Assembly (NCBI GenBank): GCA_035274845.1
Contig: DATENU010000013.1
Location: 1-64,000, forward strand
Direction of reading: 5' to 3'
Length of the DNA stretch: 64,000 nucleotides
Source of the DNA: Chthoniobacterales bacterium
GTDB lineage: Bacteria; Verrucomicrobiota; Verrucomicrobiia; Chthoniobacterales; UBA10450
The notes under the pieces are model-generated. The model was not told where the DNA came from, ran no database searches, and saw nothing but the letters and a program-made list of their open reading frames with translations. The translations under genes and the position numbers were made by a program. Each line of letters opens with the position of its first letter. The stretch's first letter is position 1. Below are positions 19,064 to 37,802 of this stretch, piece by piece.

Positions 19064-19876
19064 ATGACTGCCGCCGACCATCTCGACGAGCTCGAAAACC
19101 ACAGCGTTTTCATTTTGCGCGAGGCTCATCATGCCTTTCGCAATCTCGCGATGCCGTGGTCGATGGGGAAAGATTCCAATGTTCTCCTCTGGCTCTCGCT
19201 GAAAGCGTTCTTTGGCAAGGTGCCGTACCTGCTTCTCCATATCGACACGACCTACGAATTTCCCGAGATGATCGCGTTCCGCGAGTGGGCGATCAAACAT
19301 TACGGCATCGATGTAATCGTGAAGGTGAACACGGAGGCGCGAGCGCGCGGCGTCGGGTACGAGACCCATGACCCCGTGACCGTGACGCATGAGTTGAAAA
19401 CAGTGGCGTTGAAACAGGCGCTGGCCGAACACAAATGGGACGCGCTCATCACCGGGATTCGCCGGGACGAAGATCCGACCCGGGCCAAGGAACGCTATTT
19501 TTCTCCGCGCGATGCTGATTCGGAATGGCATTACAAACACCAGCCGCCGCAGTTCTGGGGGCAATTCGCGATCAAGAACGCGCCTGGAGAACATGTCAGG
19601 GTGCAGCCATTGCTGGATTGGACCGAGACAGATATCTGGCGGTATATCCAGCGAGAAAAAATTCCGATTCCAACCCTTTATTTTGCGCGGGACGGCAAGC
19701 GCTACCGCTCGTTGGGCTGTACGCCTATCACGCATCCGATCGAGAGCAACGCTGCGACGATCGAAGAAATCATCGCCGAACTCGAAGCCACTCGCACGAG
19801 CGAGCGGGCTGGCCGCGCCCAGGACCATTACGAACCACACGCGATGCAAAAGCTGCGCGCAAAAGGATTCATGTGA
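19064..19876 (+). CDS. cysD: Sulfate adenylyltransferase subunit 2
   Basis: A 270-residue N-type ATP pyrophosphatase. The PP-loop is SMGKDS (residues 33-38), and THELKTVALKQAL, GIRRDEDPTRAKER and DWTETDIWRYI are CysD signatures. With the GTPase CysN it forms ATP sulfurylase, which makes APS from ATP and sulfate. The stop overlaps the GTG of cysNC by four bases (GTGA), so the two subunits are translationally coupled. It starts 47 bases after the tRNA-Thr gene. Confidence 0.95.
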   Translation: MTAADHLDELENHSVFILREAHHAFRNLAMPWSMGKDSNVLLWLSLKAFFGKVPYLLLHIDTTYEFPEMIAFREWAIKHYGIDVIVKVNTEARARGVGYETHDPVTVTHELKTVALKQALAEHKWDALITGIRRDEDPTRAKERYFSPRDADSEWHYKHQPPQFWGQFAIKNAPGEHVRVQPLLDWTETDIWRYIQREKIPIPTLYFARDGKRYRSLGCTPITHPIESNAATIEEIIAELEATRTSERAGRAQDHYEPHAMQKLRAKGFM

Positions 19877-21717
19877 AAATCGTGTTCGTCGGCCATGTGG
19901 ATCATGGCAAATCGACTTTGATTGGCCGGATCCTGGAAGAGACCGGTTCGCTGCCGGAAGGGAAACTCGAGGCACTGCGGGCCAGTTGTGTGGCCGAAGG
20001 ACGTCCGTTCGAATACGCGTTTGTCCTCGATGCCCTGGCGGAAGAGCAGCAGCAGAACGTGACGATCGATACGACGCAGATTCATTTTCGTACGGCGAAA
20101 CGCAGTTATGTCATCATCGACGCGCCGGGGCATGAGGAATTCCTGAAGAATATGATCACCGGCGCGGCGAGCGCCGACGCGGCGGTGATGGTGGTCGCGG
20201 CGGACGAAGGCGCCCGCGAGCAAAGTCGGCGGCACGGTCAGTTGTTGGGGCTGTTGGGAATTCGACAGGTGATCGTGGCGGTCAATAAAATGGATTTGGC
20301 GAATTATGCGGAGACGCGGTTTCGGGAGATCGAACACGAGTTTAGCGGTTTTTTGAAGAGCCTGGGGTTAAGCGCTCGCGGCTTCATTCCAATATCGGCG
20401 GGCGCAGGGGCGAACATTGCGCAGAAGCAGGATAAGCTGGCGTGGTTCCAAGGACCTACGTTGCTGGAAGCGATCGAAGGCTTTGATGAAGTTCCATCGG
20501 CGGCGCAGCAACCTCTGCGGTTTCCGGTGCAGGACGTTTACCGGATGGGAAACCAGCGGATCGTCGCCGGCCGGATCGAGTCCGGGACCCTGCGCGTGGG
20601 CGACCAACTGCTCTTCTCGCCACGACACAAAACCGCGCGGATAGCGACTATCGAACGCTGGCCCAGTTCGGCAACGGACGCGGCGGGCGCCGGAGAATCG
20701 ATTGGGCTCACTTTGCGTGATCAAATCTTCATCGAGCGCGGCCATGTTGGATCGCACCCGGTCGATCCCCCCGTCGAATCCAATCGAATCCACGCGAAGG
20801 TTTTTTGGATCGGTCCGGAACCGCTTCGCGTCGGCGCCCGCTATCGATTGAAGCTCGTGACCCAGAGCGTGGATTGCGAAGTAGTCGCGATCGCGAATGT
20901 GATGGATGCGGCGACACTTGATTCGACCGCCTCGCAGTCCACGGAGATTCGCATCAACGAAGTCGGCCAGGTGACCCTGCAAACTCGCGCGCCGCTGGTA
21001 TTCGACAATCACGATCGTGTGCCAGGCCTGGGCCGATTCGTCCTCGCGGACGCCGACCATCTGGCTGGCGGCGGCATTATCTCCGGCGCGCTTTATCCCG
21101 GGTCGAGCACGATCAAGAGCGACAACATTTTCTGGAGCGAAAGCGAGATCACCGCGGAGCGACGCGCTCAGCGCAACCGGCATCGCGGCGCGGTGGTCTG
21201 GCTCACCGGGCTTTCAGGCGCGGGGAAATCGACGATCGCGCGCGGCCTGGAAAAAGAGCTGTTTCAGTTATCGATGAATACTTACGTGCTCGACGGCGAC
21301 AACCTGCGCCACGGGTTGAACGCCAACCTCGGGTTCGCGCCGGAAGATCGCGCGGAGAATATCCGGCGGGTCAGCGAAGTCGCCAAGCTCATGGCCGATG
21401 CCGGCACCGTCGTGATCACGTCGTTCATTTCGCCATATCGGAACGATCGGGCCCGGGCGCGCGCGATTGCGCTTCAGGCCGGGGCTGAGTTCGTGGAAAT
21501 ATTTGTCGACGCGCCCCTGGCGGTTTGCGAAGAACGCGATCCGAAGGGCCTTTACCAAAAGGCGCGAGCTGGACAACTGAAGGGCTTTACGGGAATCGAC
21601 GCGCCTTACGAGTCGCCGAACGATCCTGAAATCGTGGTCAGGACCCATGAGCAGAGCGCCGAAGAATCTGTGGATCAGATTCTCGGTGAGCTCCTGCCCC
21701 GGCTTCGTTTAAGATAG
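19873..21717 (+). CDS. cysNC: Bifunctional sulfate adenylyltransferase subunit 1 / adenylylsulfate kinase
   Basis: A 614-residue fusion starting with GTG at 19873, in agreement with the overlap with cysD. The GTPase half has GHVDHGKST (residues 7-15), DAPGHEEF and NKMDLANY; beta-barrel domains follow. The last ~180 residues are an APS kinase with GLSGAGKST (about 446-454), the DGDNLRHGLNANLGF segment and GIDAPYE. The product makes PAPS from sulfate. It may feed cysteine synthesis or sulfotransferases; no sulfotransferase is visible in this window. Confidence 0.95.
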   Translation: MKIVFVGHVDHGKSTLIGRILEETGSLPEGKLEALRASCVAEGRPFEYAFVLDALAEEQQQNVTIDTTQIHFRTAKRSYVIIDAPGHEEFLKNMITGAASADAAVMVVAADEGAREQSRRHGQLLGLLGIRQVIVAVNKMDLANYAETRFREIEHEFSGFLKSLGLSARGFIPISAGAGANIAQKQDKLAWFQGPTLLEAIEGFDEVPSAAQQPLRFPVQDVYRMGNQRIVAGRIESGTLRVGDQLLFSPRHKTARIATIERWPSSATDAAGAGESIGLTLRDQIFIERGHVGSHPVDPPVESNRIHAKVFWIGPEPLRVGARYRLKLVTQSVDCEVVAIANVMDAATLDSTASQSTEIRINEVGQVTLQTRAPLVFDNHDRVPGLGRFVLADADHLAGGGIISGALYPGSSTIKSDNIFWSESEITAERRAQRNRHRGAVVWLTGLSGAGKSTIARGLEKELFQLSMNTYVLDGDNLRHGLNANLGFAPEDRAENIRRVSEVAKLMADAGTVVITSFISPYRNDRARARAIALQAGAEFVEIFVDAPLAVCEERDPKGLYQKARAGQLKGFTGIDAPYESPNDPEIVVRTHEQSAEESVDQILGELLPRLRLR

Positions 21718-21801: not shown

Positions 21802-24117
21802 ATGTCGAATCTGGCGGTGTTCGCTCTCTCGCGATATTTGTTGGTATTACTCTTTTGCGCAGCCGCCTATCCGATCGGCCTGGCGCTTCTTCGTCGCCTT
21901 CGATTCGACGGATTCGCTGAGCGCTTTTCCATTTGCACCAGCCTTGGGCTGGGAGTGATTTCGCACCTGGTGCTGTTGTGTGGACTGGTGGGATGGCTAA
22001 CCGCGCCGGGCATAATCGCTGTCATCCTGGTGGCGACCACCTTGGGCATAGTTTTTCGTCCGACATTAAGACTCGACGGCACCGGGGTCGCTGCGCGCTC
22101 TCAGTCGCGGTCCGCACTGATCGCACTGGCGATTGGCCTTGCCCTGGCTGCCTTCGCGATGTTTCCCGTGTTATTGCTTCCGCTGTATCCTCCCACGGAG
22201 TATGACGTTACCGCCTACCATCTTGTAGCGCCCAAACAGTGGCTGCGCTTGCATTGGATGGCCCCGACGCCATTTCTCCGCTACCAGGTAGCGCCAAGCC
22301 TGGCCCATCTGCTGTTTACCGCCTTGATGTCAACCCACGATGACATCAGTCCCCAGATTTTGTCGCTTGCCGCCACAGGCCTGGTCGCGATCGCCATCTA
22401 CGCCCTGGGCAAAAGGCTGCGCGGGCCCGGCGTCGGGTTGGTCGCGGCGTCCTTTTGGATGGGCAGTCCGCTGGCGCTCGAATGCTCTCACATCGCTGGT
22501 TACCATGCCCTCGCGGCCCTGTTTTGCTTCGCGGGCATCTATGCTCTGTCGGTTTACGCGATCGATCGCCAGCTCGGCTTTTTGTTCGTCGCCGGAGTTT
22601 TCACCGGATTCGCCCAGAGCACCTGGTCAGGCGCCTTTTATTTTGTGCCCATAATTGTCGCCGCGGCAGTGTTCTTCTGGCTTCGAGAACGCCGGGTTAC
22701 TCCTGCCTGGATCGTGACTGCGGGACTCCTCGCAGGCTGGGGGCCAACCCTCCTGCGCTCTGTCTGGTACACGGGAAACCCGACTTATCCGTTGTTCACG
22801 CAACTGTTCGGAACCGGGCCGTGGTGGACCTCGGAAGACTTCCGCGGAATTGCGAACGACATTCAGAGCTACGGCGTTCCTCGCACTTTCAAGGACTTCG
22901 TCACGCTTCCGTATTCTCTCCTTGTCTCGCCGAATCGGTTTCAGCAGACCTGCTCTTTTTCTCCGGCCCTTGTTATCCTCGCCCCACTCATTTTGGTCCG
23001 CGCCGTCTGGGACAACGTCGTCCGCTGGCTCGCTGTCCTTGCGATCTACTATCTGCTCTGCTGGTTTTTTATCGGGCAGGTAATGCGGTATCTCGTCCCA
23101 ATTGTCCCGGTGGTTTGCGTCGCCGTTGCCTTGACTGTCTGCTGGGCGGTCGATGCGCTATTTCGTGATCGGCGCGCCAGCGTTGGTAAACTTACTATTT
23201 TGCTGGCTTCGTTAGCTCTTCTGCTTCCTGGCGCCGAGTTCGCCTGGAAGGGGATACAGGCACGCGGCCGCATTCCCGTAACTAAAGAGGAAGAAGCAGA
23301 CTACATCCGGGCGAGACTTCCCGAATACAACGCGGTCATGGCAACCAATGTCGTGCCAGGTCCGATGTATGCATTGCTAGCAAACAATTGTGCATACTAT
23401 TCGGACAGCGATGTCATGGGAGATTGGTTCGGGCCCGGTCGATACCCTCAGGTCTTAAGCGCGATGGGCGATGCCGAAAAACTCAACTTCACCTTGCGAA
23501 GGCTCGGTGCCGATTACTTCCTGATCAATCAACCACACACCATTGACGCCCAAATCCTGGCTGGGGCCGGCTTTGATCGGTACTTCGAACCGATCTACGG
23601 AGACTCAGCAGTCGAAGTATACCGGGTCCTAAGCTCCGCCAAATCGGACCCGGTCGAACGGAAGAATCTGTTGGCCAACCCCGGCTTCGACGAATTGTCG
23701 GGGGGAATACCGACTTCCTGGTATCGTCGCGGGGCTCCGGTCGTAGGAGCGCCTGAGGGCGGCGTTTCATCCGGAACAGTCGCGGTGGAGGTAAGCGACA
23801 GCGATGGATTCCAGCAAATCGTCGAAGTAACTCCGGGTCGCACATACGAACTGGCGCTTCACGCCAAAGCGGGCCCTCGGGGTAAGACATTTCGGCTCCA
23901 GGTCACGTGGCTTGACGAGAAAAACGAAACCCGAGACCTCTGCATCCGGTTATTCGAAGCCACGAACGACTGGCGGCGCTATCTCGGGCGCTTTACTGCT
24001 CCGCCGCGTGCCACCCGGGCCCAGATATATGTCAGCGGACACCAACCGGACTGGGTTTGGATGGATAGCTTCGAGTTTAACGACATGGGCGGGCACAACC
24101 CATCTTCAAGCCCGTAG
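21802..24117 (+). CDS. Polytopic membrane protein (GT39-like) with C-terminal carbohydrate-binding-like module
   Basis: A 771-residue protein with about 12 hydrophobic segments in the first ~500 residues. The first large loop carries PPTEYDVTAYHLVAPKQWL, with the acidic residue and pattern expected of GT-C enzymes such as PMT/ArnT-like glycosyltransferases. After a non-membrane stretch, the last ~150 residues (beginning NLLANPGFDELSGG and ending WVWMDSFEF) follow the pattern of a CBM-like beta-sandwich. It probably transfers sugars from a lipid-linked donor on the periplasmic side, but this is inferred from architecture. No close partner gene is evident other than the next membrane protein. 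Confidence 0.65.
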   Translation: MSNLAVFALSRYLLVLLFCAAAYPIGLALLRRLRFDGFAERFSICTSLGLGVISHLVLLCGLVGWLTAPGIIAVILVATTLGIVFRPTLRLDGTGVAARSQSRSALIALAIGLALAAFAMFPVLLLPLYPPTEYDVTAYHLVAPKQWLRLHWMAPTPFLRYQVAPSLAHLLFTALMSTHDDISPQILSLAATGLVAIAIYALGKRLRGPGVGLVAASFWMGSPLALECSHIAGYHALAALFCFAGIYALSVYAIDRQLGFLFVAGVFTGFAQSTWSGAFYFVPIIVAAAVFFWLRERRVTPAWIVTAGLLAGWGPTLLRSVWYTGNPTYPLFTQLFGTGPWWTSEDFRGIANDIQSYGVPRTFKDFVTLPYSLLVSPNRFQQTCSFSPALVILAPLILVRAVWDNVVRWLAVLAIYYLLCWFFIGQVMRYLVPIVPVVCVAVALTVCWAVDALFRDRRASVGKLTILLASLALLLPGAEFAWKGIQARGRIPVTKEEEADYIRARLPEYNAVMATNVVPGPMYALLANNCAYYSDSDVMGDWFGPGRYPQVLSAMGDAEKLNFTLRRLGADYFLINQPHTIDAQILAGAGFDRYFEPIYGDSAVEVYRVLSSAKSDPVERKNLLANPGFDELSGGIPTSWYRRGAPVVGAPEGGVSSGTVAVEVSDSDGFQQIVEVTPGRTYELALHAKAGPRGKTFRLQVTWLDEKNETRDLCIRLFEATNDWRRYLGRFTAPPRATRAQIYVSGHQPDWVWMDSFEFNDMGGHNPSSSP

Positions 24118-26632: not shown

Positions 26633-27412
26633 ATGGGAGAAGCCACGGATCCCAACACGTCCGGCTTCACCTGTAATATTTGTGGCGCTCAGTGTCTGGT
26701 CGCACACTCTCACCTCCAACGTGAAGTCGCTTCCTGTGCAAGTTGTGGTTCCACGCCGAGAGCACGGGCTATCATTCGGGCGCTTTCCCTGGGGCTATTT
26801 GGACAGAATATCGTCTTACCTGAATTCCCTGTGAACCGCGAAATCAGCGGATTGGGAATGAGCGATTGGGAAGGGTACGCGGCGAGGTTGGCCGACAAAT
26901 TTTGGTATACTAACACATACTACCACAAGGAGCCCAGGCTCGACATCGCCAGCCGCGACATTCCGGAATCCCTTGTCCAGTCCAGCGATTTCGTTATTTC
27001 ATCCGAAGTTTTCGAGCACGTTGTTCCTCCTGTTGGAAGGGCATTTGAAAATATTTTCAAGATGCTCAAACCGGGTGGACTCCTCGTTCTGACCGTGCCG
27101 TACGGGGCTCGGAAAGAGACGATCGAACATTTCCCTGACCTCTACGACTTCACCATCATCGAAGACAATGGTAGTTACCGGCTCAAGAACGTAACCCGGT
27201 CCGGCGAGGTGCAAGAGTTTGATGATTTGATTTTTCACGGTGGGGCGGGCGCAACCTTGGAAATGCGCATCTTCGGAGAGGGGGCGTTGCTTCAGCACCT
27301 TGCCGACGCGGCATTTGAAGCCATCACCGTCCATCGCACGCCCGATTTTTCGCATGGCATCTGGTGGCCAGAGCCGTGGTCTCTCCCCATTACTGCGAGG
27401 AGACCGCGGTAG
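26633..27412 (+). CDS. SAM-dependent methyltransferase with N-terminal zinc-ribbon-like cysteines
   Basis: A 259-residue protein. The N-terminus has CNIC and, 20-odd residues on, CASC, a CxxC/CxxC pair typical of small zinc ribbons. The later SSEVFEHVVPPVGRAFENI and LKPGGLLVLTVPYG segments identify a Methyltransf_11-type fold; the motif I glycine loop is poorly conserved. Related proteins are frequent in surface polysaccharide loci and often methylate sugars or lipid-linked precursors. It ends 86 bases before the stop of the convergent membrane protein gene. Confidence 0.75.
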   Translation: MGEATDPNTSGFTCNICGAQCLVAHSHLQREVASCASCGSTPRARAIIRALSLGLFGQNIVLPEFPVNREISGLGMSDWEGYAARLADKFWYTNTYYHKEPRLDIASRDIPESLVQSSDFVISSEVFEHVVPPVGRAFENIFKMLKPGGLLVLTVPYGARKETIEHFPDLYDFTIIEDNGSYRLKNVTRSGEVQEFDDLIFHGGAGATLEMRIFGEGALLQHLADAAFEAITVHRTPDFSHGIWWPEPWSLPITARRPR

Positions 27413-27498: not shown

Positions 27499-29370
27499 TC
27501 AGTTAGGACTCGCCGGTGGCATGGGCGTCCCTGATGGTTTGATTGAGGCGGCGTCGGGCGAGGGCATCGTCACAATTAGTTGTGCGAGAAGCCTGTGGTC
27601 AGCGTGACTGTATAACCGAAATTCGGTGGAACCCGGCTTAATCCAGCGAGCCTCTTGGGAGCCATTAGGCGCGCTCGCGAAAAGCCTTTCGCTCCCGGAA
27701 GTGCCCGTATAGACGTCGCCTAACGTGCCGGGCCCTGCATCCCAGATGATCGTCGTTTTGCCTGTCACAGTCCCACCGGGGAGCGGATTTGGATCGGCGC
27801 GGAGGACGACCCCGGCGGACGCTGCTTCGATCAGGGCTGTCGGGGCCGAAGGCGCCTTGTCAGCATGACGGAGCCCCGGAAACTGGGTGAAGCCGCCTTT
27901 ATCGAATATTGCTTGTGCGTCGCGTCGTGAGTATGAGCCCACCAATCTGGCGTCGGGACTAAAAACAAAAACGTGATCATAGGCCAGTGAAACAAGGTCA
28001 GAGCCGTGGATCACTTGCGTCGTCAGCTTGTTCGTCTTACGAAATGTGTCTGGTAGAACTACCGTCCAGTGAGTATCGGTCCCGAGAGACTTGCGAATAT
28101 AGCCCGGCACCGCAAACGGCTGGAAGGGTATGCTCGGAGCAATGACTAATTCACGCTCACCCGGGCCCGCGATATTTTTCATTATAGGCCACGACTGCAG
28201 GTAGATCCGTTGGGCCTGCTCCTGTTTACGCAGCCAGCTCGCCATACCCTTCGAAATCGACGACGTATATTCCATCATCGTTGCCGCGCATACTGCAACA
28301 GCTCCAATTGCAGCCAGCACCAGTGGCACCCCGCGCTTCGGTATAACTGCGTCTACCAACAGAACGGGTGTGAAAAGGAAAAATGCTCCCAACCAGGCAT
28401 ATAGGTCTTCCAGGTGGTTTGGCAAGAGCGTGTGTGGAAATAGAGTGGTTACGACAAACAGCAGGGAAACAAGCCCGATCCAAAGCTCTTTCCGGCTCCT
28501 CCGCCCTACCGCTACCAAAGCGCCGATCACGAGAATAGCCGGCACAGGAAAGATGAGAAACTTTAGCAGATGGGAATAGCCAAATCCGATCGACATCGGA
28601 GACCAGTCCTGAAAATAAATATCAGTGGAAGCGTGGCGCGTATTAACGAACGGCGATCTCCCCGTGTTATAAATCAGGGAGAGCCCGCCGATGAGAACAA
28701 TCGCGATAGCGAGGGCAAAAGCAGTCTTTCTCCGTTGAGGGAAGGCCAGCGCCTGGACCAGAAAGAAGATCGCGAGCGTCGCGAAATATGTTTCCTTAAT
28801 GTAGCTCGAGAAAAGAGCCAGCGCGATGATACCAACAACATTCCAGCCCAAGCCTGACTGGAGATAGTTCTGCCAAAGGTGAAAAATAACCAGGACGCAG
28901 GACAGGCAGACGACGGCGAGTATGTCCTCCTTGACGCTCCAGTAACTCTGAGGATTAGCGAAAACGAGAACGAAAAAGAAAGTGATAGTGAAAACACTCA
29001 CCGCGCGAGACGTAAGACGCTCGACATAACGAATCAACAAAGCCGCGTTGACTAGAGTCAGGGCAAATATCGGTACGAGCATCCCTCGGGTCCCGAGTCG
29101 CCCGATCAGATCAGTGATTATGAATCCGATCGGTCTGGGGTAATACCGAATGTAACGCATTAAGCCATACCCATCCGCGCTTTCTCCCAGGATAGAAAAA
29201 TGGTCAACATGGTACGGCACAAACGGATCGAGATAACCGGGGAAGAAAAAGATCAAGAGCAGAATCCAAACAGTCGAGCCGAGTCCAAGGATCAGCAGGA
29301 AATGTCTTCTGATCGATCTGGCTTGAGGCGCACGTACGTTCGGCGCTATACTACTGAGCTCGGCGCTCAT
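27499..29370 (-). CDS. Polytopic membrane protein with C-terminal DPNP/SWDTG-type domain
   Basis: About 623 residues from the ATG at 29370; a TTG further upstream could add 12 residues. About ten hydrophobic segments precede a non-membrane region. The last ~100 residues hold an 84-residue domain (codons 27562-27813) of the form ADPNPLP..TTIIWDAG..GDVY..LFA..GSQEARWIKPGSTEFRLYS..DHRLLAQL. The same domain is found alone in two lipoproteins (29658-30089 and 33027-33464). The membrane portion resembles GT-C or O-antigen-type proteins in topology only. The function is unknown; the location beside O-acetylation genes suggests a cell-surface glycan role. Confidence 0.7.
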   Translation of the reverse strand: MSAELSSIAPNVRAPQARSIRRHFLLILGLGSTVWILLLIFFFPGYLDPFVPYHVDHFSILGESADGYGLMRYIRYYPRPIGFIITDLIGRLGTRGMLVPIFALTLVNAALLIRYVERLTSRAVSVFTITFFFVLVFANPQSYWSVKEDILAVVCLSCVLVIFHLWQNYLQSGLGWNVVGIIALALFSSYIKETYFATLAIFFLVQALAFPQRRKTAFALAIAIVLIGGLSLIYNTGRSPFVNTRHASTDIYFQDWSPMSIGFGYSHLLKFLIFPVPAILVIGALVAVGRRSRKELWIGLVSLLFVVTTLFPHTLLPNHLEDLYAWLGAFFLFTPVLLVDAVIPKRGVPLVLAAIGAVAVCAATMMEYTSSISKGMASWLRKQEQAQRIYLQSWPIMKNIAGPGERELVIAPSIPFQPFAVPGYIRKSLGTDTHWTVVLPDTFRKTNKLTTQVIHGSDLVSLAYDHVFVFSPDARLVGSYSRRDAQAIFDKGGFTQFPGLRHADKAPSAPTALIEAASAGVVLRADPNPLPGGTVTGKTTIIWDAGPGTLGDVYTGTSGSERLFASAPNGSQEARWIKPGSTEFRLYSHADHRLLAQLIVTMPSPDAASIKPSGTPMPPASPN

Positions 29371-29657
29371 CCTTTCGGCAACCTTAGCCCGCCCAGCCGG
29401 GAACAACGTGACGTCATCATAATCGAGCCAGGGGTCGGGGGGATTATTGAGGGAGACGGTAGCGGACTGTCAAGCGGTAAACAGCTAACGCGATCCATAC
29501 TCCATGAGAGCGAATCGTTAGCTGCACCTGACTCAAACAGCGCGGCTGATCTTTCGAAGACGTGGGCACTGGCGGGTTGCCAGCTGCGATGGCGCCGGCC
29601 CTCAGCGAGATCTGGCGGTTCCAGTCTTGCAGCTCCCTGCTAGACGCGATTGCACCC

Positions 29658-30089
29658 TTACGGGTTGGGTGATGTCGCCGGCATCGTCACATTTAACCGC
29701 GCGAGGAGTTTGTGGTCGGATTGGCTGTACAACCTAAATTCGTTAGACCCCGGTTGAATCCATGGAGCGTTTTGGGATCCCTTGGGTGAGCTCGCGAAAA
29801 GCTTCTCCTTTCCAGCGTCGAGAACATATACGTCTCCCACGGCATCACTGCCTGTGTCCCAGGTGATCATCGTTCTGCCTTTTGGATCGGTAGGGGGAAC
29901 CGGGTTAGGATCGGCGGAAAACACCACGCCAGGCGCCAAAATTTCTGCCCCTGAGTTCCGGGCCGGACCGGTGGTCCCGTCGGTGGCCGCGCGGTCGCAA
30001 CTCACGACGGAAAGCCCTGCGAGAATAAGACAAATTGCAAGCGCCGACCGAACCATCCTTCGTAACGATTGTCTTTTTTCTGTAGACAT
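29658..30089 (-). CDS. Small lipoprotein with DPNP/SWDTG-type domain
   Basis: A 143-residue protein with a lipoprotein signal peptide (basic start, hydrophobic core, lipobox VVSC around residue 31). After a short linker, residues 54-137 form a single domain with ADPNPVP, TWDTG, GDVYVL, LFASSPKGSQNAPWIQPGS, EFRLYS and DHKLLARL. This matches the C-terminal domain of the neighbouring membrane protein and the lipoprotein at 33027-33464. Predicted secondary structure looks all-beta. Not assigned to a named family here; the role is unknown. Confidence 0.75.
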   Translation of the reverse strand: MSTEKRQSLRRMVRSALAICLILAGLSVVSCDRAATDGTTGPARNSGAEILAPGVVFSADPNPVPPTDPKGRTMITWDTGSDAVGDVYVLDAGKEKLFASSPKGSQNAPWIQPGSNEFRLYSQSDHKLLARLNVTMPATSPNP

Positions 30090-30255
30090 ATCGCATTAAA
30101 GAACGCGAATTCCCGGGGGGCAAGAAAGTTCTTCGAATGATACCTCCCGTTGCACTTGCGCAAACCTCAGCGCGTTAGGCTCGGCCAAGGAGCGGTTAGT
30201 CGTGGCGGTATAGGGGCGCTACAACTCTGGTGAGTTCCCAGGGGATCGGAAACAT

Positions 30256-31389
30256 TTACTGCCACTCGGCCTGAGCAGGCAATTCGAGTTCCCTGACCAG
30301 TCCGGTAGGCAAGCGTATTTCGATAAATTGATAGATGAAATATCGGACGTCAGAGGGCACTTGCGCCCAAACGTCACGCATCGGGAGCTGCATCCGATAC
30401 ACCGTATCGAAACGACCAAGTAATCCCGCTCGCAGCGTCCCATCCATGAACGAATCCCCGTAGAGCATGATTGCCGGTAATGTCTCGTTATTTTGACCTG
30501 TTTTGCGGATTATTTCTTTGAAATACGGAGCCTCGGGTTGAACAAATTCATAGCTTCCTTCAGCAGGGTTTGGATCAATAGCGAGTGCCTGCTCGGTAGG
30601 CGGATAAAAAAGCGGCAGAAACCTGGCTTCCCCTCCGCTCATCTTCAGGATCTTGATATTTAACGGATACCGCCAAAAAGGGACCTCTCTTCCCTCGAGA
30701 ACGGCGACGCTATTGACTAGCGTCTCGGCTACCTCGGCGGCCGCTGGATCGTTCCAGTGCAAATCCGTTTTGTGGAAAATACGTCGCTTACTTTTCAGCG
30801 GCTCCAGTATCTTTGTCGAGTCGATGTAGGTTATCCCGCTAACCTGGCGGAGTTTGCCCTTGAAGTCCTCAAACCGGTGACGCGGGAGGTGCAACCGTGC
30901 GGCGCGCGGGAGATATTCCGGGTAGAAGCGGTCTTTCATCTCGTTTGTAAGTACGATCAACCTGACCCCCCGTGATTTTAGAAAATCCCGCAGGAGAACA
31001 AACTGCGCAATAATCTCGTCGAGCTGCTGGTCGGTCATGGCCTCCTCCGCTGGCTCTTCGTTGTCCATAATATTTCGGTGATAAAGCCATCCTTCCTTCC
31101 CGATGTAAACCTTGTCCGAAACACCAAAGACCGAGTAATCAATTTGGGTTTTTGCGCGAATCAACCAATCCCGGTAGCCGTAGTGATCCGCAAACCATTT
31201 CTGGGCCTGCGCGAGCAATGCGACTGGTTTTGTGATTTCGGAAAGATATGGTGGGCGTTCGCGGTTGCGATTCTCGTCGAGCAATGGCACTCGGGGAAAA
31301 CCAGTGACCATCTGCAGGCCCGGCAGCAATAACAGGAAGAAGAAAATGGAAACAACCGCGCATTTTTCGATTTCACGGCCCCGGTTCAT
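30256..31389 (-). CDS. AlgJ/AlgX-like SGNH-hydrolase-fold acetyltransferase
   Basis: A 377-residue protein with a single N-terminal membrane anchor (hydrophobic stretch VVSIFFFLLLLPGLQMV). The periplasmic part has KEGWLYHR, the catalytic-type KTDLHWN (DxH) motif and LYGDSFMDG with the nucleophilic serine, the order seen in AlgJ/AlgX/PatB-type proteins. With an MBOAT partner these proteins O-acetylate exopolysaccharides in the periplasm. Here the MBOAT gene ends only 5 bases upstream, making the pairing strong. Which sugar is acetylated is unknown. Confidence 0.88.
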   Translation of the reverse strand: MNRGREIEKCAVVSIFFFLLLLPGLQMVTGFPRVPLLDENRNRERPPYLSEITKPVALLAQAQKWFADHYGYRDWLIRAKTQIDYSVFGVSDKVYIGKEGWLYHRNIMDNEEPAEEAMTDQQLDEIIAQFVLLRDFLKSRGVRLIVLTNEMKDRFYPEYLPRAARLHLPRHRFEDFKGKLRQVSGITYIDSTKILEPLKSKRRIFHKTDLHWNDPAAAEVAETLVNSVAVLEGREVPFWRYPLNIKILKMSGGEARFLPLFYPPTEQALAIDPNPAEGSYEFVQPEAPYFKEIIRKTGQNNETLPAIMLYGDSFMDGTLRAGLLGRFDTVYRMQLPMRDVWAQVPSDVRYFIYQFIEIRLPTGLVRELELPAQAEWQ

Positions 31390-31394
31390 AGGTC

Positions 31395-32807
31395 TTAGAA
31401 GCGGAAATAAATAAAGGGGTTAAACCCGTTTACCGACATCACAATAATAGCAAGGACGACGACAACCAGGGAGGCCATCGCGGCCAGCGGAGGGAAAAAA
31501 TACCGACTGGCTCGAAAGCCGGTGAGCGATCGGTAGGGTATGAAACAAAATGATACCGCCAGGATGAAATAGGTGACCTTATCGGCTGTCATGGTGGATA
31601 CGATAAGGGGAGTCGCTATCTTCATGTCCCGAAAGGTAAACATTGCTCGAAGGTACGCCGTCGCGGCGGTAAGGCCTTCCGATCGGAAGAAGACCCAGCC
31701 CACCATGATGGCCAAAAGCGTGTAAATCCTGCCTGCCCAGGACGGGATCGCCAGTTTCACCCACGATTTAGCCAGTCTCTCCGCAACCAGTAGCCCGCCA
31801 TGGTAAAGACCCCAGACGACGAACGTATAAGCCGCTCCATGCCATAATCCGCAGAGAAAAAAGACCGCGAAGAGATTGAATAATGTTCGGGCTGTCCCTC
31901 CACGGTTTCCCCCAAGTGGAATGTATACGTAGTCTTTAAACCACCGCGAAAGGGTCATGTGCCACCGGCGCCAGAACTCCGTCACGCTGTGCGAGCGATA
32001 CGGCTGATCGAAGTTTTCCGGGTACCAAAAACCCAGGACGCGCCCGAGCCCTATCGCCATGTCCGAATACCCGGAAAAGTCGAAGTATATCTGCAACGTG
32101 TACGCAGCTACGCCAAGCCATGCCTCGGGAGTATCGAGGGCGTTCGGCGCGACTTTGAAAACTCTATCAGCGATAAAACCCATGTTGTCCGCAAACACGA
32201 CTTTCTTCCCCAAACCAAAGCAGAACTGGCAAACACCATTATAAATGTCATCGAGCCGAATTTTGCGCAGGTGGACCTGGCTTTCGATCTCCTCGTAACG
32301 CACAATGGGACCGGCTATCAACTGAGGGAAACAGGAATGATACATCCCAAAATCAATCAAGTTCCTGGCCGGCTTCACCCGCGCCATGTATACATCCGCG
32401 ATATAAGAAATTGCTTGAAAGGTGAAAAACGAAATTCCGATTGGCAGAATTGGATTCACTTCGGGTAGCGCCGCTTTTGACCCAAGAGCCGAGAAGATGT
32501 CGGCCAGGGTCGCCAGGAAAAACCTCGAATATTTATAATAGAGAAGCGGAGCGATGTTGATCGCGACACCTATCCAGAGCAAAAGAGTTCTTCGTCGCCC
32601 TGATAGTTTATTGATGCTTAGGGCGAGATAGTAATTAAATATTACCGAAAGAGCGAGGACGGCCGTGAGTTCGCCGGAAGTGGTGAAGTAAAAGAAAAGG
32701 CTGGCGAAAAAGAGGATCGCATTCTTGCTCCTGCCAGGACTGACAAAATACAAGAGGAGAAATGCGGGAAGAAAAGCAAAGACGAACTCGGGAGAATTAA
32801 ACAGCAC
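31395..32807 (-). CDS. MBOAT O-acyltransferase (AlgI/DltB-like)
   Basis: A 470-residue polytopic protein starting with GTG (MLFNSPEFVF, a typical MBOAT N-terminus). The conserved FWRRWHMTLSRWFKDYVYIPLGGN and LWHGAAYTFVVWG segments carry the two family histidines of the acyl-transfer pore. It should pass acetyl groups across the membrane to the AlgJ-like partner encoded downstream. The two genes form an acetylation pair inside a glycan cluster. The 219 bases upstream hold no further gene. Confidence 0.93.
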   Translation of the reverse strand: MLFNSPEFVFAFLPAFLLLYFVSPGRSKNAILFFASLFFYFTTSGELTAVLALSVIFNYYLALSINKLSGRRRTLLLWIGVAINIAPLLYYKYSRFFLATLADIFSALGSKAALPEVNPILPIGISFFTFQAISYIADVYMARVKPARNLIDFGMYHSCFPQLIAGPIVRYEEIESQVHLRKIRLDDIYNGVCQFCFGLGKKVVFADNMGFIADRVFKVAPNALDTPEAWLGVAAYTLQIYFDFSGYSDMAIGLGRVLGFWYPENFDQPYRSHSVTEFWRRWHMTLSRWFKDYVYIPLGGNRGGTARTLFNLFAVFFLCGLWHGAAYTFVVWGLYHGGLLVAERLAKSWVKLAIPSWAGRIYTLLAIMVGWVFFRSEGLTAATAYLRAMFTFRDMKIATPLIVSTMTADKVTYFILAVSFCFIPYRSLTGFRASRYFFPPLAAMASLVVVVLAIIVMSVNGFNPFIYFRF

Positions 32808-33026
32808 GGCTTATAGATATCGGTTCTGCGATTCGCTCGCCCTGCAGGAAAGTTCCTCTACGGAAGATGTGCCGACTGTTTTGATCCCACGCCAGGTGAT
32901 TATGATTCCTTGGGAATTGAGGTCAGCCAGCGCAGAATTCGGCTAAGTATCTCCGAGAGGATTGGGTATTTAGAGAAGGGCTTCGGGTTCCTGTATCCCT
33001 GAAGGCGAAATTGAGTTGTTCAAGAC

Positions 33027-33464
33027 TTACGGCGCCGGAGTCGAGGAAACCGTTAACTGTGGTCTGCTGACGGTTAATTCCGCCACAAGTTTGTGATCCG
33101 GCCGGGAATACATGCGAAACTCTGTCGATCCAGGTTGAATCCAGGCGGCGGGCTGGGAGATTTTTGCGCCCCGTCCAAATATTATTTCCTTGTCCCCACT
33201 CACGAGGTAAACATCGGCCTCGGCGGCACTTCCTGTATCCCAACTAATCGTCGTGGTTCCCACTCCAGTTCCAGCCGGCACAGGATTCGGGTCCGCGCGT
33301 AGAACCGCCTTAGCCCAAGTATTTGCAGGCGTGGGCGAGGATTCCTGGGTCGATGTCGCGGTGGGTCGTTCGCATCCCATGACAGCCAGGTAACAAGCTG
33401 CCAGGATGGCAAGCGGGGAAAACCGTCCCCATTTTTTTATCCGATCCATTTTTGGCCCGATCAT
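33027..33464 (-). CDS. Small lipoprotein with DPNP/SWDTG-type domain
   Basis: A 145-residue protein. Its ATG at 33464 overlaps the stop of the large glycosyltransferase (ATGA); a second in-frame Met five codons on is an alternative. The lipobox is AVMGC (cysteine near residue 30), followed by a Ser/Thr/Pro-rich linker and, at residues 52-135, [32 protein letters not shown] and DHKLVAEL. This third copy of the domain is closest in pattern to the lipoprotein at 29658-30089. Role unknown; tethering to the outer membrane beside glycan assembly proteins is inferred. Confidence 0.75.
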
Positions 33465-36115
33465 TGGTTGGTTTCCATCTTGGGGCGAAGCACGCCCAAT
33501 TCAGTGAGTAATTCTGCCAAGTTACGTCTGGCCGCCGCAAGCGAGAAGTATTGCTCGACGTTCTTTATTCCGTTTTTCGACAGCCGTTCCCAGAGTTGGG
33601 CATCGCGATGAAGCCGGACGACTTCCTTTGCAAAATCTGCCGCCGTGTCCGCCACCAGGACGTTTTCGCCATGAGTCAGGTGCATTCCTTCCACCCCGAT
33701 CGTGGTTGAGACGACCGGGACTCCAAAACTCATGCTCTGATTGATCTTGCCTTTGACCCCCGCGCCCCAGCGCAACGGAGCGACCGAAAGAAGGCAGGTC
33801 TCGAAAAACGCATCCACATTCTCAACGTAGCCGTGGGCAAGAACGTCATCGCAGGCCAAGGTGCGAACCGCCTCTGGCATTTTGCTGCCCACAATGTGAA
33901 ATATTGCTTGCGGCAGCTGCTTCCGTATCAGGGGCATGATTCGGCCGACGAACCAAAGCATGGCATCCACGTTGGGCGTGTGCTCGAAACCACCGATGAA
34001 CAGGAAATCCCGGCGAGCATGGTAGGGCGGAATGGTTGCCTTCGTCTCATGGATATTCGAAACGATCTCGATTCGCTGCCGAGGCAGCCTTTCGGCCAGG
34101 ATTTCCTTTTCATCCGGACTCACCACCAGGACGGCATCGCATTCCGCCGCGAGCTTCAACTCCATGAGCTGCGTTTCTCCTGCTACTTCATGGACTGTCT
34201 TGTCGCCCGTTAGCTCGGCTTCGCGCTGCTGGCGGACAAAATGCAGGTCAACAGTGTCGAAGATAATCGGCGTGGAAGGCGCGTAGGTTCGACAAGCCGG
34301 CATGACCTTGGCCGCGGTTTCGGCGCGGGACAAAATGATGACATCAAAGGCCTGTTTTCGTTGCGCGAAGAACGCCTCGAAGTTCACAAAGAACGGGTCG
34401 TAAAGACATTCGATGCCCAACTCCTGCATCCGCTCCGTGTAGGGCGAAAGATGCTGGGCATTATAAGGGGCGAAGGTCACGTGAAAACCGAGGTCCTGCA
34501 GGATGGTCAATAACTTGAGCATTCGCACCGAGCCGGAGTCCTGGTCCGGGCAGAGAACGCGGGCGTCCACGACAAAGGCGCGTCTAGTGACCGAGCGTTC
34601 TTTAGCATCGGCGAGATCTTCCGAATGCCCTTCGAATTGTTGCGCCAGCGCCGAAGCCCATTTCTTCCGGAATTTCTTCTGGTTGATCGGTTGATAGCTT
34701 TTTACTCCACTCTCGGTGCTCGTTCCGCTGGTCTGACCTTCGTGGTGGATGATTTTCGCCAGGGGCTGGTAATAGACCTTGCGTCCCGCGGCGCGGATCT
34801 TGAAGGCGAGATCGGTGTCCTCATAGTAGGCCGGAGCATAGATCGGATCGAAACTACCGAGCTGGTGGAAAAGGGCCTTGGGAATCAGGATGCAGGCTCC
34901 GGAGCAATAATCGACTTCGCGCAGGTAGTTGTACTCCGGCTTGTCGGCGTGATCGCCCTTTCCGTAGTTTACGCCGGAAGCATCACGCCAAATGATTCCT
35001 CCCGCTTCCTGAAGACGGCCGTCGGGATAAACGAGCTTGGCCCCGGCTAACCCGGCGTCCGGACGTCGTTCGAACACTCTTAGCAGGGCCGACAGCCATC
35101 CTGCCGTTACTTCGGTGTCGTTGTTCAGGAAGAGGAGGTATTCTCCCCGGGCAGCCGCGGCGGCTTCGTTGCAGCTGCGCAGGAACCCGCGATTTGTTTG
35201 GTGGCGGATAATGTGCACACCCTTAACGTTCTGAAGACATCGAGCGGTCAATTTCGACGAGTTATCATCGACGATTACGACCTCGTAGCTGCACTCCCCG
35301 GTTTGGGAGGTGATGGACTTGAGGCAGGCCAGAGTCACCTCGATCTGCTCGTAAACCGGGATCAAAACGGAGACCTTCGGTTTTTCGTAAGATGGAAACG
35401 CCAAAAGGGACGCACGACGTTCATCCAGGGTCCGTAGGAAGGCCGTAGCCGGCCGGTTTCTCACCGTGATTTGCTTGTCGAGCGGGTGAACGACAATGCG
35501 GCCGGATTTCAACCGCGCCTTGATTTTGAGAGGGGTCTTATCCAGCGGAATCCTGAGCTGACAATGAAAGCCGGATTGTTTGCTATTGGGCAGCTCGGGG
35601 AAAATAGCAGCCAGATCGAGGCGCGGTTTACCGTAATAGCAGGCAAAGGAATTGCCTCCTGCCTGAATAGAGAGTTGCTCGATGGCCTCCTGCGGGTGAA
35701 GGGCCCAGCCGGACACGGTGACGGGATTTTCATCAACGGTATCGCTCACGGGAAAATCGATGCGAGCAATCAAGGGCGCTATTTCGGCGCACAACGGCAG
35801 ACTTGCCAGGCGGGTCCACGCTTTTCCATCAGGGCTGACTTCCAAATAGGCTTTCCGATAACCGGGTGGCATCCAGCTCTTGAGCGCGAATCCGCAATCC
35901 GCAGCCTGAGGAAAATCCGGGAATGTGGCGCCCACATCCGGGCGGGGCATCCGGGAGGTACAAAGATAGGATCGATCCTCCACTGTGAGCCGGACCAGGG
36001 GCGCAACGTTCGTCGATTCGTCGAAGCACCAGCCGGAAAAGTGAATGCCGCCGTGAGTGGCAAACAACGGATGCGGCTGATCAATGCAGACGCGGCATTT
36101 CGCTGGATCAATCAT
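33461..36115 (-). CDS. Multidomain glycosyltransferase: duplicated N-domain, GT2, GT4
   Basis: An 884-residue protein with several domains. Residues about 23-95 and 132-205 are two copies of a beta-rich module sharing GWxxx, RLD/RPDV, FP-x-x-P and GF features. From about residue 247 a GT2 domain begins with [12 protein letters not shown], then [18 protein letters not shown] and [16 protein letters not shown]. From about residue 515 a GT4-type domain follows, with [33 protein letters not shown] and [13 protein letters not shown]. It likely adds two sugars in sequence. It overlaps the coiled-coil methyltransferase (8 bases) and the lipoprotein (4 bases). Confidence 0.87.
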
Positions 36116-37802
36116 GGGCGCGGGGGACGGCCATTAATTGCTGAAGTTTTCTTTGTGATCGTCCGAAGGGAAGAATCAGCTTTCCCGCAGTGTCCCTCCG
36201 AAGCCGGTCCAACTGTTTTTGATAGAGCCGCAGTTCCTTTGTCGACTTCGTCAACTGATCTTGCGCGGACCTTAATTCTTCCAGGCTGGCTTGCCGCAAT
36301 TGCTCGAGATCTCTTTGCGAAGAGAGTTCGGCCTGTTCGAGATCTCTTTGGAGGCCGACCACCATTTCGCGCAAGTGATCGCGGTCGCTTTCGGCCAGTT
36401 CCGCCCGGTTCTGTAATTCCAGAGTCTGAGAGATCGCGGGGTCGACCGAGTCGGCTTTGCGCAGGGCCGTCCCACGCAACGTCAGGGCTTCCCATTCCGC
36501 ATCCAGCAAGTCCTTGGAGGCTCGTGCCAGTCGATCATCCTTCTGTTCCAGCTGGGCTTTGAGAGTATCGATGAGCCGCGCTTGTTGGTCGTTTTCGCGC
36601 TGCAACGTTGTGATCTCATGATTAAGTTGCGCAACGTGCTCTAGCCCTTTCTCGATCTGCTGAGGAAGCGCCGCCACCTCCGCCGACTTGGTCTCAATCG
36701 CGCTTTGCAACTGGGCAATCCGGTCGGCCTTTGCCTGGACCTCTCGCTTTAGGTTCGCAATTTGGCCTTCTTTGGATTCGCCCGCTTGCCGCAGCCGCGG
36801 CATGTCGGCGCCGGTGGCCGGCTGCCCCAGCAAATCGTGCCAAAGCGCGAGCGCGGCCGCGGCGTCCGCGTAGAACCGATTCATATCGCGTCTTTCGGCC
36901 TCGCCTGCGCCCATCAGTTTGCGGAGCAACGCGGGACTGCTCTCTGTCACGGGCTCTTTCTTCCAGACCCCAAGGCCGTGACCGAACTCAAACAAGAACG
37001 AATTACGTTCGCCGACGATTTCTTCCCACACCTTCCAAACGCCGAAGCCTCCGTCGCGGACCACGACGTCATGAAAAAGGATGACACCATGGGGGGATAA
37101 TTTGGGGAGCCAGGATTCGAAATCCGTTTTGACATCGTTGTAGGTATGGGTGCCATCGATGTGGAGAAGATCGATGCTGCCATCAGCGAATTCGCCGAGC
37201 GCCTCGGCAAAGAGCATTACCTTCAGCTCAGAGAAACTTGAATAACGCCAGTTATACTCCGCCACCTCATGCTCGATCTCGGGATCGAGGTTTCCCGTCT
37301 GGATATCTCCCCGCCATGAATCGATGCCATAACATCGAACGCTGATCTTGTTCTCGGCGGCTGACTGGCAAAACGCGAAATACGACTCGCCCTGTTTCAC
37401 GCCAAGCTCGACGAACACTTTCGGGGCAAGCTCGCGCATCAAATCGTAGGCAAACGGGAGATGCATACACCAGGAATCGCCCAGATAGCGCTCGATACGC
37501 GGTCCGAGATAGACCGGGGTAACCAGCTCCGTGAAATCCAGGGTCCGTGGTGGTTGGAGCCTGGGATGGCGCTCGGGCGAGACCAGCGGGGTCGGCGCCG
37601 GGGCGCCATTTTTTTTGAAATCCGGGCCAGTCTGCGCCTGAGCGGCGGCGTTTTGCTGCTCCGCGAAGGCGATAGCTTCAGCTTCGGTGACAAAATAGCT
37701 ACGCTTCCATTTTCCATCGATTTTCCCTCGGACGAGGAATTTATACTTGGCGTTAGCGTAGGGCTTCACGCGGAACGGCGGCTTCCACATATCGCCGTTC
37801 AT
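36108..37802 (-). CDS. SAM methyltransferase with long C-terminal coiled coil
   Basis: A 564-residue protein. A short N-terminal module (residues 1-55) contains [22 protein letters not shown]-like sequence. Residues about 100-290 form a Methyltransf_24-type domain: [36 protein letters not shown] and GVILFHDV. From about 335 to 545 the protein is an almost continuous heptad-rich, Glu/Gln/Lys/Leu-rich coiled coil. The layout recalls O-antigen chain-length regulators such as WbdD, in which a methyltransferase is joined to a coiled coil that measures chain length; that parallel is an inference. It overlaps the large glycosyltransferase gene. Confidence 0.82.

Follow-up and report, generated by a model that had tools for sequence, protein, structure and literature searches.

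The GT-C enzyme ORF12 (GT136) of C. youngae has a C-terminal Ig-like, CBM-type domain that binds the O-polysaccharide acceptor/backbone (PMC11127046). AlgX, a CBM-bearing protein of alginate acetylation, binds the polymer; AlgJ does not (PMC4148444). The window analyzed here, a stretch of 64,000 nucleotides from a Chthoniobacterales bacterium (contig DATENU010000013.1), bears three copies of an 84-residue domain, all on the minus strand (Table 1). Their alignment is free of gaps, 38 of its 84 columns are invariant, and the identity of the other two with copy 1 is 61% and 52%, a similarity far beyond chance. Searched in six frames with the lipoprotein of copy 2, the whole genome (4.5 Mb) yielded the other two (E-values = 2.7e-30 and 5.4e-27). 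The next best match was at 0.19 and no further copy was found, so all copies detected in this genome sit at one locus.

Table 1. Coordinates of the features discussed, in the window and, for permuted copies, in relatives (the latter from simple ORF calling).
Feature	Coordinates	Strand	Details
Polytopic PMT_2 (GT-C) protein, C-terminal CBM_4_9	21802..24117	+	PF13231 2.7e-7, PF02018 3.2e-10
SAM methyltransferase without the domain	26633..27412	+	N-terminal Cys-rich (zinc-ribbon-like) motif; adjoins the cassette
Polytopic GT-C-like membrane protein, domain at its end	27499..29406	-	635 aa, 11 predicted TM
Domain copy 1	27562..27813	-	C-terminal in the polytopic protein 27499-29406; orthologous to the L007 copy (100/98 in tree)
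Small lipoprotein, domain only	29658..30089	-	143 aa, lipobox VVSC, Asp at +2
Domain copy 2	29679..29930	-	In lipoprotein 29658-30089; AlphaFold model with 7 beta strands, pLDDT 90
AlgX/AlgJ-type SGNH O-acetyltransferase partner	30256..31389	-	377 aa; PF16822 1.9e-18, residues 94-228
MBOAT O-acyltransferase (AlgI/DltB type)	31395..32807	-	PF03062 6e-34
Small lipoprotein, domain only	33027..33464	-	145 aa, lipobox VMGC, Glu at +2
Domain copy 3	33060..33311	-	In lipoprotein 33027-33464
Two-domain glycosyltransferase GT2 + GT4	33461..36115	-	884 aa; PF00535 2.2e-24, PF13692 2.3e-22
Methyltransferase (Methyltransf_24), long coiled coil	36108..37802	-	PF13578 4e-25, SMC-like coiled-coil matches; synteny
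Permuted copies in GT2s of relatives	L058:8321-9811, L062:2300-5649, L084:7091-11666, L059, L057, L043, L044		

A preliminary description of this locus had placed two copies alone behind a lipobox and a third at the C-terminus of a large polytopic membrane protein, all on the minus strand in one cassette with an MBOAT/AlgJ pair and a coiled-coil methyltransferase. The ungapped alignment returns the three copies at those positions, and the rest of that picture was confirmed as well. Both lipoproteins possess the basic n-region, the hydrophobic stretch and the lipobox Cys (VVSC followed by DR, VMGC followed by ER), and the domain is their only folded part. The genes for the MBOAT and the SGNH protein are adjacent, lie between the copies and are flanked by the two domain lipoproteins; the match of the SGNH protein spans its SGNH part only, and a separate carbohydrate-binding module was not detected in it. 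The MBOAT is the top scorer among the four of the host genome. Upstream, the same cassette continues with the GT2-GT4 gene, whose stop shares four bases with the start of the copy 3 lipoprotein, and with the coiled-coil methyltransferase gene, a layout reminiscent of chain terminators of the WbdD type, whose coiled coil serves as a ruler (PMC11127046). Many relatives show the same synteny, a GT2-GT4 homologue being followed by a domain lipoprotein or a domain-bearing methyltransferase. Wzt_C, the CBM of ABC exporters, was not found in the host genome.

Concerning the polytopic protein, hydropathy gave 11 TM helices with a positive-inside pattern and a VDH motif in loop 1, and the charge pattern predicts a periplasmic C-terminus. 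Neither Pfam nor PDB yielded a match, and a model of the whole protein from two sequences reached a pLDDT of 37; its topology and acidic first periplasmic loop point to a putative GT-C protein. A search for a domain-free version led to one full-length ortholog (G408/L007, 76-77% identical), which has the domain too, and to a partial match of 74 residues in G425. The SAM methyltransferase on the plus strand, absent from the preliminary description, matters because its homologues in related genomes bear the domain. They are fused to it in L068 and L069 (phmmer E = 8e-115 to the fused protein), which links this methyltransferase with the domain in the Rosetta-stone sense, and they adjoin a domain lipoprotein in L065 and L066. 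Additionally, the window holds many glycosyltransferases, epimerases and one carbamoyltransferase, together with sulfate-activation genes (19064-19876, CysD-like; 19525-21717, CysN/APS kinase). Given these CysD/CysN-type genes and the sulfotransferases near domain genes in relatives, the surface polymer may be sulfated.

Neither the window proteins nor 46 diverse family members gave a convincing sequence match to a Pfam, NCBIfam or PDB family. None of the 46 matched the Pfam FN3 model at E-values up to 0.1, neither they nor the window proteins matched an Ig-like family of Pfam or NCBIfam, no CBM family model matched the domain, and a description of the module was not found in the literature. 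Two members match the NCBIfam model NF038210 (MftG; mycofactocin GMC oxidoreductase) at 1.4e-5. The weak PDB profile matches include five FN3 domains or FN3-derived binders. AlphaFold with six sequences predicted seven strands for copy 2 (pLDDT 90, pTM 0.81; model m1a77ecaf8be7). The top matches from Foldseek and VIA were mostly Ig and FN3 domains and sandwiches like them; Z reached 9.3, at 2.0 A over 79 residues, and 7jgt FN3tt was among the best solved structures (TM 0.59/0.57). Model and matches agree on a seven-strand, two-sheet Greek-key sandwich, so that the predicted fold can be regarded as settled at the level of an Ig/FN3-like sandwich and at no finer one (FN3, Ig or other). The most conserved residues (P10, W26, W59, I60, F67, L69, Y70) look mainly like core or structural ones, and the stretch W-I-x-P-G-x-x-Y-x-F-R-L-Y resembles the FN3 E-F region. 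The domain is thus best described as a predicted Ig/fibronectin-III-like beta-sandwich module, undescribed and unnamed so far. PorZ (5m11, Z 8.5) and the mirolase CTD (8qb1) were also among the structural matches, which raises the idea that the domain is a sorting signal for C-termini like the type IX secretion CTD, itself of Ig-like fold. We consider this hardly credible: many Ig-like folds score alike against the domain, and the architecture led us to reject it, as the domain also occurs at N-termini, in a loop between TM helices, on lone lipoproteins and in proteins without signal peptides.

A profile built on the 46 members and run against 83 genomes of the family detected the domain in 41, with 73 full-length copies. 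Within the genus of the window, no copy was detected in five of eight genomes, and the domain is therefore accessory. It appears to be rare outside the family: among 338 phylum-wide genomes, only one was positive besides the window's own, with two tandem copies ending a polytopic protein. The sole match on plasmids is from another phylum, a secreted M23 peptidase with three tandem copies at its end on plasmid pHAU02 of Herpetosiphon aurantiacus (L085:3831-5495). Relatives were not found in phages and viral contigs. Two Acidimicrobiaceae matches (L009, L010) were rejected: the one in L009 runs antisense to an SDR gene, and no match was obtained in either genome.

A tree of 58 copies and 82 columns, in which many forks are open, joins the three window copies in one clade (96/88) with the polytopic copy of L007 and the lipoprotein copy of L008. 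Such a clade of the window and two congeners indicates duplication within this lineage. The earlier proposals of a local duplication, of one homologous family (one confident predicted fold, one clade) and of a domain without a recognised name in Pfam and NCBIfam are thereby borne out. Fusions to GT-C-type proteins require at least four label changes on branches with good support; such proteins have thus repeatedly acquired, or lost, the module.

The partners in relatives are diverse. Lone domain lipoproteins, often directly after the GT2-GT4 and coiled-coil methyltransferase genes, are present in the window, L008, L066, L067 and L072, covering two genera. At the C-terminus of polytopic proteins the domain occurs in the window, L007, L068 (PMT_2), L081 and L083, and tandem copies exist in L081, L083 and L085. 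It also lies in the loop between TM helices 1 and 2, predicted to be periplasmic, of a 560-600 aa protein that adjoins an MBOAT gene in about 18 genomes; this protein has no Pfam match and is SGNH-type by its invariant GDSR and DxxH motifs alone. Another carrier is a GSCFA protein, with the domain at its C-terminus; the GSCFA family belongs to the SGNH clan and has no known function (PMC9487903). Three kinds of SAM methyltransferase bear the domain N- or C-terminally. Finally, in GT2 glycosyltransferases it sits inside the C-terminal part in circularly permuted form, the C-half preceding the N-half with about 20 residues between them, flanked by 'HFP' and 'P.DS.EAI..LE'. Mapped on the model, the permutation places the new termini in the loop that joins strand 3 to strand 4, and L084 has three such GT2 genes in a row. 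A related but distinct repeat was noticed at L081:1820-4247 ('...TWTSYGTNxVEIHIxAPDG...HWVxxGMTFYLQNVSNGxPLTSANTLATVT'), three times in tandem and once on a methyltransferase; it adjoins domain genes and is weakly matched by the domain profile.

Such a number of unrelated partners and such varied positions (N-terminal, C-terminal, inserted, permuted), together with the patchy presence in the family and in the window's genus, would be expected of a ligand-free structural spacer or stabilising tail that is freely shuffled, its compact and harmless nature having let it spread through local duplications and fusions. A sharply conserved polar surface patch, moreover, could not be shown. We nevertheless hold this explanation to be unlikely, since partners and neighbours are largely glycan-related and not random, and since the domain also stands alone on lipoproteins, with nothing there to space, which are kept beside the same GT2-GT4 gene in several genomes.

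Regarding gene context, an MBOAT gene lies within 5 kb of 21 of the 73 full-length copies versus about 0.4 expected (taking 83 genomes of about 2.8 Mb each and about 125 MBOATs in all), the 21 being interdependent, as 18 are one orthologous group and three are those of this window. Most domain copies are not near MBOAT/AlgJ. Methyl-, sulfo- and O-acyltransferases are over-represented next to domain genes: the matches among 115 neighbouring genes were to methyltransferase (14), sulfotransferase (12), MBOAT (five) and phosphomannose isomerase (five) families, numbers that include repeated orthologous loci and so overstate independence. Among 115 control genes from arbitrarily chosen regions there were two sulfotransferases and, among the matches listed, no methyltransferase, MBOAT or phosphomannose isomerase. 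No Wzx/Wzy gene was found on this contig, the Polysacc_synt and Wzy_C matches of the genome being on other contigs.

In our view these data fit best with a non-catalytic accessory of surface-glycan assembly and modification, which would most likely bind the glycan chain and keep it close to an enzyme; we put the chances of this reading at about even. Glycan binding, argued here by analogy, is favored by the glycan-enzyme partners, the CBM_4_9 of the PMT_2 protein and the ORF12 and AlgX precedents, and also by the AlgX-like window protein without a detected CBM next to two module lipoproteins that flank the acetylation pair. One copy would hang from the periplasmic end of the GT-C-type membrane protein. 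The two lipoprotein-borne copies would stand beside the MBOAT/AlgX-type pair, in whose AlgX-like member no carbohydrate-binding domain was detected. By the E. coli rule, the Asp and Glu at +2 would keep at least one window lipoprotein in the inner membrane, and we infer both this location and a cooperation with MBOAT/AlgX. Asp at +2 is known as a Lol-avoidance residue in Gram-negative bacteria (PMC5727369), a rule that may not hold in Verrucomicrobia. Of the 13 lipoprotein copies detected, 7 (6 distinct proteins) had this Asp, versus 0 of 11 in a small background.

The domain-bearing methyltransferases and GT2s have no signal peptide or TM helix. On membrane proteins the domain is mostly predicted to be periplasmic, L068 being ambiguous by simple hydropathy. 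Judging from these sequences, the domain probably works in the cytosol too, and the preliminary idea of a common role in binding or guiding a glycan during export therefore keeps its tie to surface-glycan genes, including MBOAT/SGNH, and loses its export-specific part as too narrow. The cytosolic methyltransferases at the same time count against glycan binding, as a single ligand must then occur in cytosol and periplasm alike, unless the domain has more than one role. Ig/FN3 folds are mostly protein binders or spacers, and this counts against it as well, together with the mainly core-like conserved residues and the absence from most genomes of the window's genus. The CBM of the C. youngae GT-C enzyme, moreover, was dispensable for activity under the tested conditions (PMC11127046). 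A bolder form of the glycan-binding reading, quite unlikely in our estimate, is that of one glycan-reading handle across the whole decoration line, through which cytosolic methyltransferases, periplasmic glycosyl- and acetyltransferases and inner-membrane lipoproteins would recognise the same repeat unit or chain end. Recognition before and after membrane crossing would then let each enzyme find the same polymer.

Cytosolic and periplasmic carriers, several copies per operon, tandem copies and a fold common among protein binders would suit a protein-protein docking or oligomerising module, whose copies bind each other or a common partner and gather the glycan machinery in complexes on each membrane side. 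This we find rather doubtful: many family genomes hold one copy only, the partners are in different compartments, and copies of the same genome can diverge widely (the methyltransferase and GT-C copies of L068 are in different parts of the tree), which is unexpected for self-docking.

An unnamed module marking the enzymes of methylation, sulfation, acetylation and glycosyl transfer of surface glycans in soil Verrucomicrobia would make it possible to place many unannotated proteins in a single pathway. It would further give a small and testable entry to how such accessory domains direct glycan enzymes of the membrane to the polymer, a question still open for the GT-C enzyme whose domain of this kind was studied (PMC11127046).

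Compared with known systems, the module resembles the FN3 domains of bacterial secreted enzymes in its seven strands and the Trp in strand B, but its partners build glycans and do not degrade them, and it has no Pfam FN3 match. Like the C-terminal CBM of AlgX, it is an accessory of an MBOAT-partner SGNH O-acetyltransferase, in this case an Ig-like module fused to or encoded beside one; it differs in that it precedes the SGNH-type part or resides on a lipoprotein of its own, and no match to the AlgX CBM was seen. The PMT_2 protein with CBM_4_9 in the same window shows an arrangement analogous to that of the polytopic domain protein, with a known carbohydrate-binding fold; as it has no BLAST similarity to either domain-bearing GT-C protein and is not alignable with the polytopic protein of the cassette, the comparison is one of analogy only. 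A further likeness is to the Ig-like CBM-type domains of GT-C enzymes (ORF12/GT136, EmbC, AftD), beta-sandwiches on the extracytoplasmic side of a polytopic enzyme (PMC11127046). The module has 84 residues versus about 150 in ORF12, with which a shared sequence family was not detected, and, unlike these GT-C domains, it is also found on lipoproteins, SGNH-type proteins, methyltransferases and GT2s.
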